Source: Burkholderiaceae bacterium (GTDB lineage Bacteria; Pseudomonadota; Gammaproteobacteria; Burkholderiales; Burkholderiaceae). From it: a stretch of 64,000 nucleotides of DNA. Numbering within the stretch: the stretch's first letter is position 1; every line of letters begins with the position of its first letter. The stretch lies in the NCBI GenBank assembly GCA_947448625.1, contig CANFOT010000005.1:42568-106567 (forward strand), given 5' to 3'. The notes under the pieces are model-generated. The model was not told where the DNA came from and did not search any database. It saw nothing but the letters and a program-made list of their open reading frames with translations. The translations under genes were made by a program, and so were the position numbers. Positions 41,225 through 45,997 of this stretch are shown here, piece after piece.

Positions 41225-41250
41225 AATCGATCTTGAGAAGCCAAATAAAT

Positions 41251-41703
41251 ATGAGTATCGTCGATAACAAAAAAGCCTTCTTCGATTATTTTATCGAGGA
41301 ACGGTTCGAGGCGGGGCTGGTTCTGGAGGGCTGGGAAGTAAAAGCCATCCGCGCCGGACGCGTCCACATTAAAGAAGCGTATGTCGTCATCCGTCGGGCG
41401 GAGCTATTCCTGATCGGCTGCCATATCACCCCGCTCCTATCGGCCTCTACCCACATCGTTCCAGATAGCACCCGCACCCGCAAACTTCTCCTCAATGCGA
41501 TTGAGATTAAAAAGCTCATCGGCAAGGTCGAGCAAAAGGGCTATACCCTGGTTCCATTAAATTTGCATTTCTCGAAAGGGAATGTGAAATGCGAGATTGG
41601 GCTAGCCCGCGGCAAAAAACAACACGACAAGCGTGCGGCAACCAAAGAACGGGAGTGGGAAGTTCAAAAAGGTCGCATCGCTAGAGGCGATTTAAATGCC
41701 TAA
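41251..41703 (+). CDS. smpB: SsrA-binding protein SmpB
   Basis: A 150-residue RNA-binding protein that delivers tmRNA to stalled ribosomes. The oligonucleotide-binding barrel has [27 protein letters not shown]; the C-terminal tail [14 protein letters not shown] is typical. The ATG at 41251 is preferred over the TTG at 41233 in the ORF track. No tmRNA gene was recognised in the window. Confidence 0.94.
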
Positions 41704-41733: not shown

Positions 41734-41750
41734 TGCACTAATTTAGTGCA
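41734..41750. promoter_or_regulatory. NtrC-like binding site upstream of the Anbu operon
   Basis: TGCACTAATTTAGTGCA is a near-perfect palindrome (TGCACTAA, T, TTAGTGCA). It fits the NtrC half-site consensus TGCACY-N5-RGTGCA exactly, and contains GCAC-N7-GTGC. It lies 64 bases upstream of the ATP-grasp start codon and three bases from the candidate sigma-54 element. A rho-independent terminator for smpB is less likely because no U-tract follows. Confidence 0.45.
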
Positions 41751-41753
41751 GAT

Positions 41754-41768
41754 GGGCACCAAGCTGCT
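41754..41768 (+). promoter_or_regulatory. Candidate sigma-54 promoter (-24/-12) for the Anbu operon
   Basis: GGgcaccaagctGCt keeps the essential GG-N10-GC spacing of sigma-54 promoters. The -12 part (TGCT) fits TTGCW well; the -24 part (TGGGCA) is weaker against TGGCAC. The expected transcription start would be near 41779, giving a leader of about 35 bases. The NtrC-like site is unusually close for an enhancer. Confidence 0.3.
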
Positions 41769-41813
41769 CCACCCCTAGCATTTTCACCCCTTCAAAGGCA
41801 TTAGTTTGTAACT

Positions 41814-43226
41814 ATGAAATTGCCATTTGACGAAATGCTCGACGCCAGCGGAAAAGCGCGTCCCCATTACCAAGTCTTCCACAACTGGTTAAAGCAACAG
41901 AGCGACACCCTCATGGGTCTCAAGCGCGCTGAAGCTGACCTTATCTTCCGACGAGTCGGCATCACCTTTGCCGTTTATGGGGATGACCTAGGATCAGAAA
42001 GAACCATTCCTTTTGATCAAGTACCCCGCATCTTTACTGCCAAAGAGTGGGAGCAACTCGAGGCAGGCCTGCGTCAACGGGTTAAAGCACTCAATCGCTT
42101 TATCTACGATGTGTATCACGAAGAAGAAATTATTAAAGCAGGCATCATTCCTGCGGAGCAAATTTATAACAATGCGCAATATCGTCCAGAGATGCGTAAC
42201 GTCAACGTACCACGAGATATTTATGCTCAGATAGCTGGGATCGATATCGTGCGTGCTGGTGAAGGTGAGTTCTACGTTCTCGAAGATAACTTACGCGTTC
42301 CATCCGGCGTCTCTTATATGGTGGAAGACCGCAAGATGATGATGCGCCTCTTCCCGGACCTTTTCCAAAAATATCGCGTTGCCCCAGTGGAACACTACCC
42401 CGATTTTCTGCTGGAGTGCTTAAAGTCCGTTAAGCCGGATGATGTCAAAAAACCCAATGTTGTGGTGCTGACTCCAGGAATGTACAACTCTGCGTATTTT
42501 GAACACAGCTACCTAGCCCAGCAAATGGGTGTTGAGCTAGTTGAAGGTAAAGACTTATTTGTAAAGAACGAACAAGTCTTTATGCGCACTACTCAGGGGC
42601 CCGAACGCGTGGATGTCATTTATCGCCGCGTCGATGACGACTTCCTCGATCCCCTTGCTTTCCGGTCGGACTCGACCCTCGGTGTTGCGGGATTACTCTC
42701 TGCACATCGCGCTGGAAATGTCACATTAGCCAATGCGATTGGCACTGGTATTGCTGATGACAAGTCAATCTACCCATATGTACCCGACATGATCGAGTTC
42801 TATTTGGGTGAGAAACCCATTCTCAATAATGTCCCCACCTTCCAATGCCGTAAGCCAGACGACCTTGCTTACACTTTAGCCAATTTAGACAAGTTGGTTG
42901 TGAAGCTAACGCATGGTGCTGGCGGCTATGGCATGCTCGTTGGGCCAGCATCAAGCAAAGCCGAGATAGAGGAATTTCGTGGACACCTGCTGGCTAATCC
43001 AGATAAATATATTGCTCAACCGACGCTAGCCCTCTCAACCTGTCCAACATTTGTTGAAGCTGGTGTAGCGCCTCGCCATATTGATTTACGTCCATTTGTT
43101 CTGTCTGGAAAAACAATCAAGATGGTCCCAGGCGGCCTTACCCGCGTTGCCCTCAAAGAAGGTTCTTTAGTGGTGAACTCCTCACAAGGTGGCGGCACTA
43201 AAGACACCTGGGTTCTAGAAGAGTGA
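41814..43226 (+). CDS. Circularly permuted ATP-grasp protein (Anbu operon)
   Basis: A 470-residue protein of the circularly permuted ATP-grasp family (DUF404/DUF407 type). Conserved blocks are GITFAVYGDDLGSERTIPFD, QIYNNAQYRPEMRN, FYVLEDNLRVPSGVSYM, VVLTPGMYNSAYFEHSYLA, VDVIYRRVDDDFLDP, KLTHGAGGYGMLVGP and RHIDLRPFVL. ATP-grasp enzymes join a carboxylate to an amine or thiol; members of this group were predicted to make short peptides or tag proteins. It is the first gene of a four-gene operon with alpha-E, transglutaminase-like and Anbu genes. The NtrC/sigma-54-like elements lie just upstream. Confidence 0.9.
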   Translation: MKLPFDEMLDASGKARPHYQVFHNWLKQQSDTLMGLKRAEADLIFRRVGITFAVYGDDLGSERTIPFDQVPRIFTAKEWEQLEAGLRQRVKALNRFIYDVYHEEEIIKAGIIPAEQIYNNAQYRPEMRNVNVPRDIYAQIAGIDIVRAGEGEFYVLEDNLRVPSGVSYMVEDRKMMMRLFPDLFQKYRVAPVEHYPDFLLECLKSVKPDDVKKPNVVVLTPGMYNSAYFEHSYLAQQMGVELVEGKDLFVKNEQVFMRTTQGPERVDVIYRRVDDDFLDPLAFRSDSTLGVAGLLSAHRAGNVTLANAIGTGIADDKSIYPYVPDMIEFYLGEKPILNNVPTFQCRKPDDLAYTLANLDKLVVKLTHGAGGYGMLVGPASSKAEIEEFRGHLLANPDKYIAQPTLALSTCPTFVEAGVAPRHIDLRPFVLSGKTIKMVPGGLTRVALKEGSLVVNSSQGGGTKDTWVLEE

Positions 43227-43240
43227 AGGAATAAGTAAAT

Positions 43241-44248
43241 ATGTTGAGTCGCACCGCAGATTGCCTTTACTGGATGGCACGCTACACAGAGCGAGCAGAA
43301 AATACTGCCCGGATGTTGGATGTTAACCATCAAACCTCCCTACTTCCACAGCCTGCAGAGTTTCTCGAGCAAAGCTGGAAGAAGCTGCTTACGATCTCCA
43401 AGCTAGAAGAATCCTTTCTGCAGAAATACGATGTAGTCACTCGCGAAAATGTCTTGGACTTCATGATTTATGAGACCAGCAATCCATCCAGTATCGTGTC
43501 CTGTTTATTTGCCGCCAGAGAGAATGCGCGCGTCATTCGGGGCAAAATTACTTCCGAGGCATGGGAAACACAAAATACTACTTGGCTAGAATTACAACGC
43601 ATCTTGGAAGCCCGTCATCAAGCGGACCCCAGTAGATTGCTTGATTGGGTAAAGCATCGCTGCCATCTATTTAGAGGCGTGATGCATGGCACCATGCTCA
43701 AGAATGAAGCTTTTTATTTTATGAATGTAGGCACCCTTCTAGAGAGAGCCGATAACACCGCTCGTATTTTAGAGACTAAGTATGAAGGTCAATCCGCACT
43801 AGAGGTATTGCATTCCGACAAACAAGGTAATGAAGTTAGTGCTGAGCTTGTGGAGGTGATTGACGGGGCTGATGGCGACTTTTTTGATTTCTATCACTGG
43901 GCCGCCCTACTCCGCTCAGTCTCTGCCTTTGAGATCTATCGTCAGATTTACTCTGATCAAGTAACGCCAAAACAAGTGGCGCAGCTCTTAATTTTTAACA
44001 AGCAGATGCCGCGCTCACTAGTTTGCTGCGTCAACGAACTCATTCCCCTGATTGCAGAAATGAAGAATCAGCAATCCAAAGAGATTGAACGTCTTCTTGG
44101 GAAGCTAAAGGCAAGCTTAGACTATTCCGATATTGATGAGGTGTTCTCACAAGGGCTAGAAGAATTTATTGAAGAGTTCTTGGAGCGCATCAATCATATT
44201 GCCGATGAATTCAGCAACGCTTACCTCATTCCATTAGCAGTAGCTTAA
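43241..44248 (+). CDS. Alpha-E domain protein (Anbu operon)
   Basis: A 335-residue all-helical protein of the alpha-E family (DUF403). The N-terminus MLSRTADCLYWMARYTERAENTARML is diagnostic. YETSNPSSIVSCLFAARENARVIR and FYFMNVGTLLERADNTARILE follow as an internal repeat-like second half. The family almost always neighbours the ATP-grasp partner, in some genomes fused to it, and its job is unknown. It starts 14 bases after the ATP-grasp stop. Confidence 0.9.
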   Translation: MLSRTADCLYWMARYTERAENTARMLDVNHQTSLLPQPAEFLEQSWKKLLTISKLEESFLQKYDVVTRENVLDFMIYETSNPSSIVSCLFAARENARVIRGKITSEAWETQNTTWLELQRILEARHQADPSRLLDWVKHRCHLFRGVMHGTMLKNEAFYFMNVGTLLERADNTARILETKYEGQSALEVLHSDKQGNEVSAELVEVIDGADGDFFDFYHWAALLRSVSAFEIYRQIYSDQVTPKQVAQLLIFNKQMPRSLVCCVNELIPLIAEMKNQQSKEIERLLGKLKASLDYSDIDEVFSQGLEEFIEEFLERINHIADEFSNAYLIPLAVA

Positions 44249-44256
44249 AGATCGCC

Positions 44257-45054
44257 ATGCACCTGAAAATTCGTCACCGTACAGAATACCGCTATGAAAC
44301 GCCGGTACACTACTCCATCCAAGAGTTACGTCTCACACCACCCGATGTAGCGGGTCAAACAATCGAAAAGTGGAAAGTTAGCACGCCAATTAAAGCAAGC
44401 ACGTCACTTGATGCCTTTGAAAACCTGTACAGCGTTTTTGTTCAAGAAACCTCCTATACCTCAATGATGATTGAAGCTGAAGGGGAAGTCCACACTCAAG
44501 ATGCCTATGAATTTATCGATGCACCTAAGGCTGTATCGCCATACCATCTATTGCAGCAAACCAATTTAACGGAACCCACAGCTGAAATGCTCGAAGTTTT
44601 CTCTAGCTCGCTCCCGAAAAAAAAATCTGTTGATGAAGTTATGGCATTAGCTGCAGCAGTACAAAGCACCATCCTATACTTCCCCGGACAAACTAACTTT
44701 GCCACAACTGCCGCCCAATCCTTTGCCATGAAATCCGGCGTTTGCCAAGACCATGCGCATATCATGCTTGGCTTGTGTCGCGCCTCTGGCATTCCAGCTC
44801 GCTATGTCAGCGGCTACTTCTTTGCTGAAGACTCCCCCAATCTTGCAAGTCACGCTTGGATTGATTTCTGCGCCGACGTTGATAAAAAACTCTGGCTAAG
44901 CATTGACATCACCAATGCCTGCTTTACTGATGCCCGCCATATTCGCCTTGCTATTGGAAGGGATTACTACTCAGCAGCCCCCGTTAAAGGCGTCCGCTCG
45001 GGTGGAGGCGGTGAAGAGTTAAGCGCTAATATCTCCATTACCCAACTGATCTGA
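44257..45054 (+). CDS. Transglutaminase-like cysteine peptidase family protein (Anbu operon)
   Basis: A 265-residue protein with an N-terminal beta domain (MHLKIRHRTEYRYETPVHYSIQELRLTPP) and a transglutaminase-like core. The catalytic triad is visible: Cys163 in SGVCQDHAHIMLGLCR, His199 in SHAWIDF and Asp217 in SIDITNA. Such enzymes cleave or form amide bonds; in this operon a peptidase or ligase acting on the ATP-grasp product is plausible. It lacks a signal peptide, so it acts in the cytoplasm. It starts eight bases after the alpha-E stop. Confidence 0.9.
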   Translation: MHLKIRHRTEYRYETPVHYSIQELRLTPPDVAGQTIEKWKVSTPIKASTSLDAFENLYSVFVQETSYTSMMIEAEGEVHTQDAYEFIDAPKAVSPYHLLQQTNLTEPTAEMLEVFSSSLPKKKSVDEVMALAAAVQSTILYFPGQTNFATTAAQSFAMKSGVCQDHAHIMLGLCRASGIPARYVSGYFFAEDSPNLASHAWIDFCADVDKKLWLSIDITNACFTDARHIRLAIGRDYYSAAPVKGVRSGGGGEELSANISITQLI

Positions 45055-45110: not shown

Positions 45111-45119
45111 ATGGGATGA
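45111..45119 (+). other. Two-codon ORF (ATG GGA TGA) overlapping the Anbu start
   Basis: ATG GGA TGA ends in a TGA that overlaps the Anbu ATG as ATGA. The AAAGGG ribosome site is three bases from this ATG and about eight from the Anbu ATG, so the latter is favoured. It may be chance or a minimal coupling device. Confidence 0.25.
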
Positions 45120-45997
45120 CTTATTGCGTTGGGCTTTGCCTAAAAGATGGTTTAGTGTTTTTATCGGACACTCGCACTAATGCGGGTGTTGATCAAGTCG
45201 GCACCTTTAGGAAAATGTCTTTATTCCAGAAGGATAAGGATCGTTTCTTTACCCTGATGAGCGCAGGAAATTTAGCCATCACCCAAGCAGTAAAAGAAAT
45301 TTTGCTACAAGGTGAGCTTCTTGATGGCAAGAATCTATGGAATGCAGAAAGCACTCATGATGCAGCCGTTGTGATCGGCAATGCGATCAAGCGAGTTTAT
45401 GAAAGAGATCACAAGGCGCTAGAAAAGGCAGGTATTGACTTCAATTGCAACCTGATCTTTGGCGGGCAGATTAAGGGTGAGCGCCCAAGACTCTTTAATA
45501 TCTATTCTGCCGGTAATTTTATTGAGGCAACGCCTGAAACTTGTTACTTTCAGATTGGGGAGTCCAAATACGGCAAGCCAATCCTGGATAGAGTCATCAG
45601 CTTTGATACACCCCTCAATTTGGCCACTAAGTGCGCCCTGATTTCAATGGACTCAACTCTAAACAGCAATATTTCTGTTGGCCTACCACTCGATCTTCTG
45701 GTCTACGAAAAGAACTCCTTGCAAGCTAGCAAGCTCGTCACCATGGATGAATCAAACCCCTACTTCCAGATGATTCATCAACTTTGGGGTGAGAAATTAC
45801 GTTCCGCATTTAACTCCATTGCTGAGCCAAGCTGGTCGGGGGCTACACCATCCAAATCGATTGCCTCACCGGCCAAGAAAATGGGTGCGGTGCCCATTCA
45901 TCGCGCTAACAAGGCCCCAAAGAAGGCGGCCATACCTGCTAAAACTGTCGGCAAGCCAATCCCCAAGAAAAAAGTGGCTACTAAAGGTAAACGCTAA
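45116..45997 (+). CDS. Anbu-type proteasome-homologue peptidase with lysine-rich C-terminal tail
   Basis: A 293-residue Ntn-hydrolase of the Anbu (ancestral beta-subunit) family. After Met removal the nucleophile is Thr1 of TYCVGLCLKDG; Asp17 is in LSDTR and the catalytic Lys in TFRKM (residue 32). Core features include LMSAGNLAIT, FNCNLIFGGQI and IGESKYGKPILDR. Anbu forms helical or ring assemblies; its natural substrates are unknown. From about residue 238 a basic, low-complexity tail of about 55 residues (PAKKMGAVP, APKKAAIPAK, PIPKKKVATKGKR) extends beyond the usual Anbu core. It is 61 bases after the transglutaminase gene. Confidence 0.9.
   Translation: MTYCVGLCLKDGLVFLSDTRTNAGVDQVGTFRKMSLFQKDKDRFFTLMSAGNLAITQAVKEILLQGELLDGKNLWNAESTHDAAVVIGNAIKRVYERDHKALEKAGIDFNCNLIFGGQIKGERPRLFNIYSAGNFIEATPETCYFQIGESKYGKPILDRVISFDTPLNLATKCALISMDSTLNSNISVGLPLDLLVYEKNSLQASKLVTMDESNPYFQMIHQLWGEKLRSAFNSIAEPSWSGATPSKSIASPAKKMGAVPIHRANKAPKKAAIPAKTVGKPIPKKKVATKGKR

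Follow-up and report, generated by a model that had tools for sequence, protein, structure and literature searches.

A predicted NtrC operator before the ligase/Anbu operon of Polynucleobacter, and a possible role for NtrC at sigma-70 promoters

Homologs of the operon considered here are known to respond to nitrogen. In Burkholderia cenocepacia, the homologous operon is activated by NtrC and controlled by NtrC together with sigma-54; its representative in strain H111, I35_5080-83 (DUF404-DUF407/DUF403/transglutaminase), shares the ligase, Alpha-E and transglutaminase gene families and the regulator with our locus (PMC5491218). The Anbu operon of Pseudomonas putida, PP_2685-2688, which likewise holds Anbu, a transglutaminase and partner genes, is induced by nitrogen limitation (PMC5666114, PMC7801951), although its host comes from another bacterial order than Polynucleobacter. 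As for the regulator, NtrC proteins that lack the GAFTGA motif and act at sigma-70 promoters have been described in Rhodobacter capsulatus and Caulobacter (PMC10274813). Binding of ATP, rather than its hydrolysis, is essential to the R. capsulatus protein, and the Caulobacter protein, which is needed for glnA expression, has an eight-residue deletion of the loop and also represses developmental genes (PMC10274813). Both hosts are Alphaproteobacteria, whereas Polynucleobacter belongs to the Betaproteobacteria. In the open-licence literature, we found no description of a GAFTGA-less NtrC in Betaproteobacteria, nor of a sigma-70-type NtrC or nitrogen induction of Anbu in Polynucleobacter.

The window, the whole stretch of 64,000 nucleotides analyzed here, is assigned to a freshwater Polynucleobacter genome, with the closest named relatives of its ligase protein being Polynucleobacter records at 97-99% identity. 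It contains a four-gene operon for an ATP-grasp ligase, an Alpha-E protein, a transglutaminase and Anbu (ancestral beta-subunit), which is the gene set described for Anbu operons (PMC5666114). The features are collected in Table 1.

The palindrome before the ligase gene

Between smpB and this operon lies TGCACTAATTTAGTGCA, which fits the NtrC consensus letter for letter, as the initial annotation had claimed. The window has no other exact match and the whole assembly just one more, upstream of amtB, while two sites with one mismatch each, 52 bp apart, are found upstream of glnA-ntrB-ntrC. The consensus read backwards served as a control for the scan: it gave no matches in this genome at zero mismatches, and 6 against 14 for the operator when one mismatch was allowed. 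With two mismatches, a scan of the window returned chance numbers only, and matches of this kind were left out of the analysis. Exact sites are widespread in the genus, occurring in 145 of 151 genomes.

Table 1. Position and nature of the features around the predicted NtrC operator (window coordinates)
Feature	Position	Strand	Remarks
smpB	41233..41703	+	Upstream neighbor in the same direction; ends 30 bp 5' of the palindrome
Predicted NtrC operator TGCACTAATTTAGTGCA	41734..41750	.	Perfect TGCACY-N5-RGTGCA; centre 72 bp 5' of the ligase ATG (41814)
GG-N10-GC	41754..41767	+	Separated from the palindrome by three bases; sigma-54 promoter reading rejected
Conserved GCACCAAGCTGC with GCACC, putative third NtrC half-site	41756..41767	+	In direct orientation; spaced 21-22 bp from the first half-site
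Candidate sigma-70 -10 hexamer TAGTTT	41802..41807	+	62.5 bp from the palindrome centre; weak, inferred
Circularly permuted ATP-grasp ligase (COG2308)	41814..43226	+	First gene of the operon; PF14403 8.9e-167
Alpha-E protein	43241..44248	+	PF04168 4.4e-98
Transglutaminase-like protein	44257..45054	+	PF08379 and PF01841
Anbu, proteasome-like	45116..45997	+	PF00227 0.00012, just below cut-off; gene set as in PMC5666114

The initial annotation had made its reading depend on the palindrome recurring before orthologous operons, and it does recur. A clear palindrome precedes the ligase gene in 51 of 61 genus upstreams (window included), its centre nearly always 70-74 bp before the start codon, and among 69 named Polynucleobacter-type records, a set that overlaps in part with the 61 upstreams, 66 have it at -70 to -73. 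So fixed a position is far beyond chance. Across relatives, the letters of the NtrC core are invariant and those between the half-sites vary. Since the same operator stands at glnA-ntrBC and amtB and is conserved before orthologues of the operon, nitrogen control is likely, and the palindrome would be the NtrC operator that confers it. The part of the annotation that proposed nitrogen control is thus strengthened, also by the NtrC- or nitrogen-controlled homologous operons described above. An operator common to glnA, amtB and the ligase/Anbu operon has the appearance of an NtrC regulon.

NtrC and rpoN across the genus

The NtrC protein of this genome scores 657 bits against TIGR01818 (cut-off 558.6), has the receiver, AAA+ and Fis-type HTH domains of its family, and is encoded in the order glnA-ntrB-ntrC; 115 of the 116 good genus genomes encode NtrC. 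Its loop reads GAFPGA in place of GAFTGA, and thus lacks the motif expected of a sigma-54 enhancer-binding protein, while Walker A and the phospho-acceptor aspartate are kept. An absent GAFTGA together with a retained aspartate and ATP-binding motifs is the sequence signature of a sigma-70-activating NtrC of the R. capsulatus type, and the two systems are further alike in having NtrB and nitrogen-gene targets. They differ in that the loop is deleted in R. capsulatus (PMC10274813) but mostly substituted in Polynucleobacter (GAFPGA, AQFGNT, GAFANA); GAFSGA, GAFQGA, GAVPGA and GAFANA-like loops also occur in the genus. The best reading is that a sigma-70-type NtrC arose in Betaproteobacteria independently of R. 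capsulatus.

Across 60 sampled genomes, rpoN accompanies all 14 GAFTGA or GSFTGA loops and 21 of the 46 other loops (Fisher p 1.4e-4, a statistic that ignores relatedness). Nearly all of the rpoN-positive genomes without a GAFTGA loop (19/21) encode a second activator, mostly of the DctD-like kind, as against 0/25 of the rpoN-negative ones; where the loop of the second activator was read, it is an intact G[SA]FTGA, and in the example examined the protein is DctD-like and encoded next to a sensor kinase. In an NtrC tree computed from sequences whose loop had been masked, GAFTGA disappears on two occasions and does not come back. This history and the pattern of second activators point the same way as the association between loop and rpoN.

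The initial annotation had also tied its sigma-54 proposal to the presence of rpoN. We did not find rpoN in the window's own assembly, which is 82% complete, nor in 68 of the 116 good genus genomes, and several close relatives with near-complete genomes lack the entire 7.7-kb segment around it. Its distribution is patchy, with 11 changes on the NtrC tree. In one genome (G079; L306, L288), rpoN sits in a segment that close relatives do not have; about 30 kb away from it are the genes of a DctD-like activator with its sensor kinase.

Some lineages show further changes in NtrC. In the AQFGNT subclade (L151, L153, L155), the whole loop is rewritten and all members lack rpoN. In another subclade (L129, L131-L138, L141, L171), the Walker B aspartate has become glycine (LFLGEIG), so that ATP is probably not hydrolyzed; by analogy with R. 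capsulatus NtrC, this would suit a regulator that no longer hydrolyzes ATP. G106 (L167) has a broken NtrC and in G103 none was found; both genomes also have a broken ligase gene, a joint decay that probably reflects genome reduction.

The GG-N10-GC element and a third half-site

The initial annotation read the element that follows the palindrome as the -24/-12 part of a sigma-54 promoter. The letters are indeed there, but the promoter is not borne out. The GG-N10-GC pattern occurs 559 times in the window, where 538 +/- 24 are expected, or about once every 115 bases. At this position, the full -24/-12 score has a p of about 0.07 (partial score 0.73), and the match to TGGCAC-N5-TTGC is only partial. 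Relatives have other letters at the GG but keep GCACC-AAGC-YGC, and a significant sigma-54 consensus is seen in 3 of 61 genus upstreams, which is the chance level. With no rpoN found and the T of GAFTGA missing from NtrC, the proposed control of the operon by sigma-54 falls as well. This sets the locus apart from I35_5080-83 of B. cenocepacia H111, which is sigma-54-dependent. Among 27 orthologous operons of other genera in the Burkholderiaceae, 18 are preceded by a full sigma-54 consensus, and in Janthinobacterium an NtrC palindrome lies about 56 bp further upstream of a sigma-54-type promoter. Given these promoters and the upstream site in Janthinobacterium, the ancestral operon was probably an ordinary NtrC/sigma-54 target with a similar layout.

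What is conserved next to the palindrome is a GCACC at a distance of 4 or 5 bp, which places it 21 or 22 bp behind the first half-site. Of 51 upstreams, 47 carry it, as do 21 of 25 once near-duplicates are removed (chance 0.005). In diverged species, TGCACC alone is left of the conserved block, and in one upstream (L094) exactly 10 extra bp, about one helical turn, separate the palindrome from the half-site. On this comparative evidence, the element once taken for -24/-12 is a third NtrC half-site repeat. The annotation had been puzzled by the gap of three bases and had offered direct contact among its explanations; with the second element as a half-site rather than a sigma-54 promoter the puzzle is gone, and direct contact comes closest to the evidence. 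Third half-sites were also sought at the other promoters, where they occur at 8 of 28 amtB and at none of the glnA promoters, and we rejected the arrangement as a general rule for NtrC promoters.

Promoter geometry and competing readings

To locate candidate -10 hexamers, every offset from the palindrome was scanned with no prior choice and compared with shuffled sequence. The top-scoring hexamers of amtB (an invariant CATAAT) and glnA (TAAATT) share an offset of exactly 41.5 bp, and both exceed the shuffles by far. CATAAT displaced TATATT at 32.5 bp, an earlier candidate for amtB. Before the ligase gene, the offset of TAGTTT is the best downstream of the palindrome in 35 non-redundant orthologues, with a mean above all shuffles; TAGCAT (41776-41781) was rejected here because it is not conserved. 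The offset of TAGTTT differs from that at amtB and glnA by 21.0 bp, or two helical turns, which would centre NtrC near -51 at those two genes and near -72 at the ligase/Anbu operon. Positions near -51 and -72 are in phase with those known for class I/II activators. NtrC sites in R. capsulatus lie more than 100 bp upstream, unlike the single palindrome with half-site predicted here. TAGTTT is a weak -10 (3/6) that scores below those of amtB and glnA; it would imply a nearly leaderless message, and constraints on the translation start could also conserve sequence at this place. The -10 of the operon is the weakest link of the sigma-70 reading.

Other features of the two nitrogen promoters deserve mention. 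Upstream of glnA (L016 4173-4186, and relatives), GGCATnnnnnATGCC forms an inverted repeat that also fits GG-N10-GC. It is kept 80 bp before glnA across the GAFPGA clade, rpoN-negative genomes included, and may be either a relic of a sigma-54 promoter or another element. The second NtrC site of glnA (L016 4106-4131) abuts TGCAATAAT, a clade-conserved sequence resembling an extended -10, which bound NtrC would occlude; occlusion of this kind by NtrC is known from glnAp1 of Escherichia coli. A small Rap1a-type protein (L015 3620-3982) is encoded divergently from amtB, with the NtrC operator common to both, and a close amtB homologue was not found in four good genomes (G011, G016, G026, G033).

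Taken together, we favor the reading, at a probability of roughly 0.68, that NtrC in the Polynucleobacter lineage acts as a close-range sigma-70 activator of the ligase/Anbu operon and is no longer a sigma-54 motor. The change from GAFTGA to GAFPGA would have ended its role as a sigma-54 enhancer motor, and the predicted operator would bring the four genes into the nitrogen regulon. Phosphorylated NtrC would bind the palindrome and the third half-site 21 bp further on, and would recruit or contact the ordinary sigma-70 form of RNA polymerase, always from the same face of the helix, at amtB and glnA from near -51 and at the ligase/Anbu operon from two turns further away. The operator and its conservation, the half-site, the losses of loop and rpoN and the common phasing of the candidate -10 hexamers are seen directly in the sequences; from them we infer that NtrC binds, that it activates and does not repress, where transcription starts, and that the operon responds to nitrogen. 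Several points speak against the sigma-70 reading. Apart from the weak -10, they are the GGCATnnnnnATGCC repeat that persists at glnA in rpoN-negative genomes, the scarcity of third half-sites at amtB and their absence at glnA, and an assembly that is only 82% complete. In addition, some species of a GAFTGA clade that possess rpoN (G063, G104, G125, with the loop read for G063; L107-L109) have the same layout of palindrome plus half-site, so that the layout and the loss of the loop do not strictly go together. Rewiring of the promoter may precede loss of the loop, or the layout may fit either sigma factor. For the history of the system as a whole, we see about even odds that, within this one genus, two independent conversions turned NtrC from a sigma-54 motor into a close-range sigma-70 activator, that the glnA, amtB and Anbu promoters were rebuilt on a phase rule of 41.5 bp between NtrC centre and -10, alone or with two turns added, and that rpoN, left mainly to serve a DctD-like activator, became dispensable and was lost repeatedly.

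It is also conceivable that NtrC, bound between smpB and the ligase gene, acts as a repressor by obstructing either a sigma-70 promoter or transcriptional read-through. Repression is common for operators near promoters, and the second glnA site next to TGCAATAAT could be of this kind; Caulobacter NtrC, too, represses sigma-70 genes (PMC10274813). We nevertheless regard repression as unlikely, as the homologous operon of B. cenocepacia is activated by NtrC (PMC5491218), that of P. putida is induced by nitrogen limitation (PMC5666114, PMC7801951), and the candidate -10, in phase with those of amtB and glnA at a shift of 21 bp, suits activation. Less probable still is a layout that represents a compromise, where NtrC works with sigma-54 in species that have rpoN and with sigma-70 only where rpoN is gone. 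Such a compromise would accommodate the patchy, often-changed distribution of rpoN, the layout shared by L107-L109 and the conserved GG-N10-GC-like element at glnA; however, the loop is lost in rpoN-positive species too, nearly all of which have another activator that accounts for rpoN. A sigma-54 promoter at GG-N10-GC, activated by NtrC bound three bases upstream, has in its favor the letters, the partial score and the true sigma-54-type promoters of the homologous operon in other Burkholderiaceae, but the unconserved GG, the chance-level frequencies in the window and the genus, the GAFPGA loop, the missing rpoN and the rpoN-less complete relatives that share the layout make it very improbable. 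In this strain the palindrome forms a perfect inverted repeat of 8 bp, at 30 bp from the end of smpB, but a role as RNA or terminator element of smpB, or as the site of another regulator, is hardly credible, considering that no T-run follows it, its middle varies while the NtrC core letters alone stay, and matching operators occur upstream of glnA and amtB.

Returning to the sigma-70 reading, NtrC is the textbook sigma-54 activator, and in this genus its loop, the sigma factor and the promoters can be observed at various points of a transition. With culturable species at hand, the conversion of an enhancer-dependent regulator into an ordinary activator would become testable. A further suggestion of our analysis is that the ligase/Anbu system, which is poorly understood, stays under nitrogen control even when the transcription machinery is exchanged, and such retention would argue that the system serves nitrogen or protein-turnover needs.
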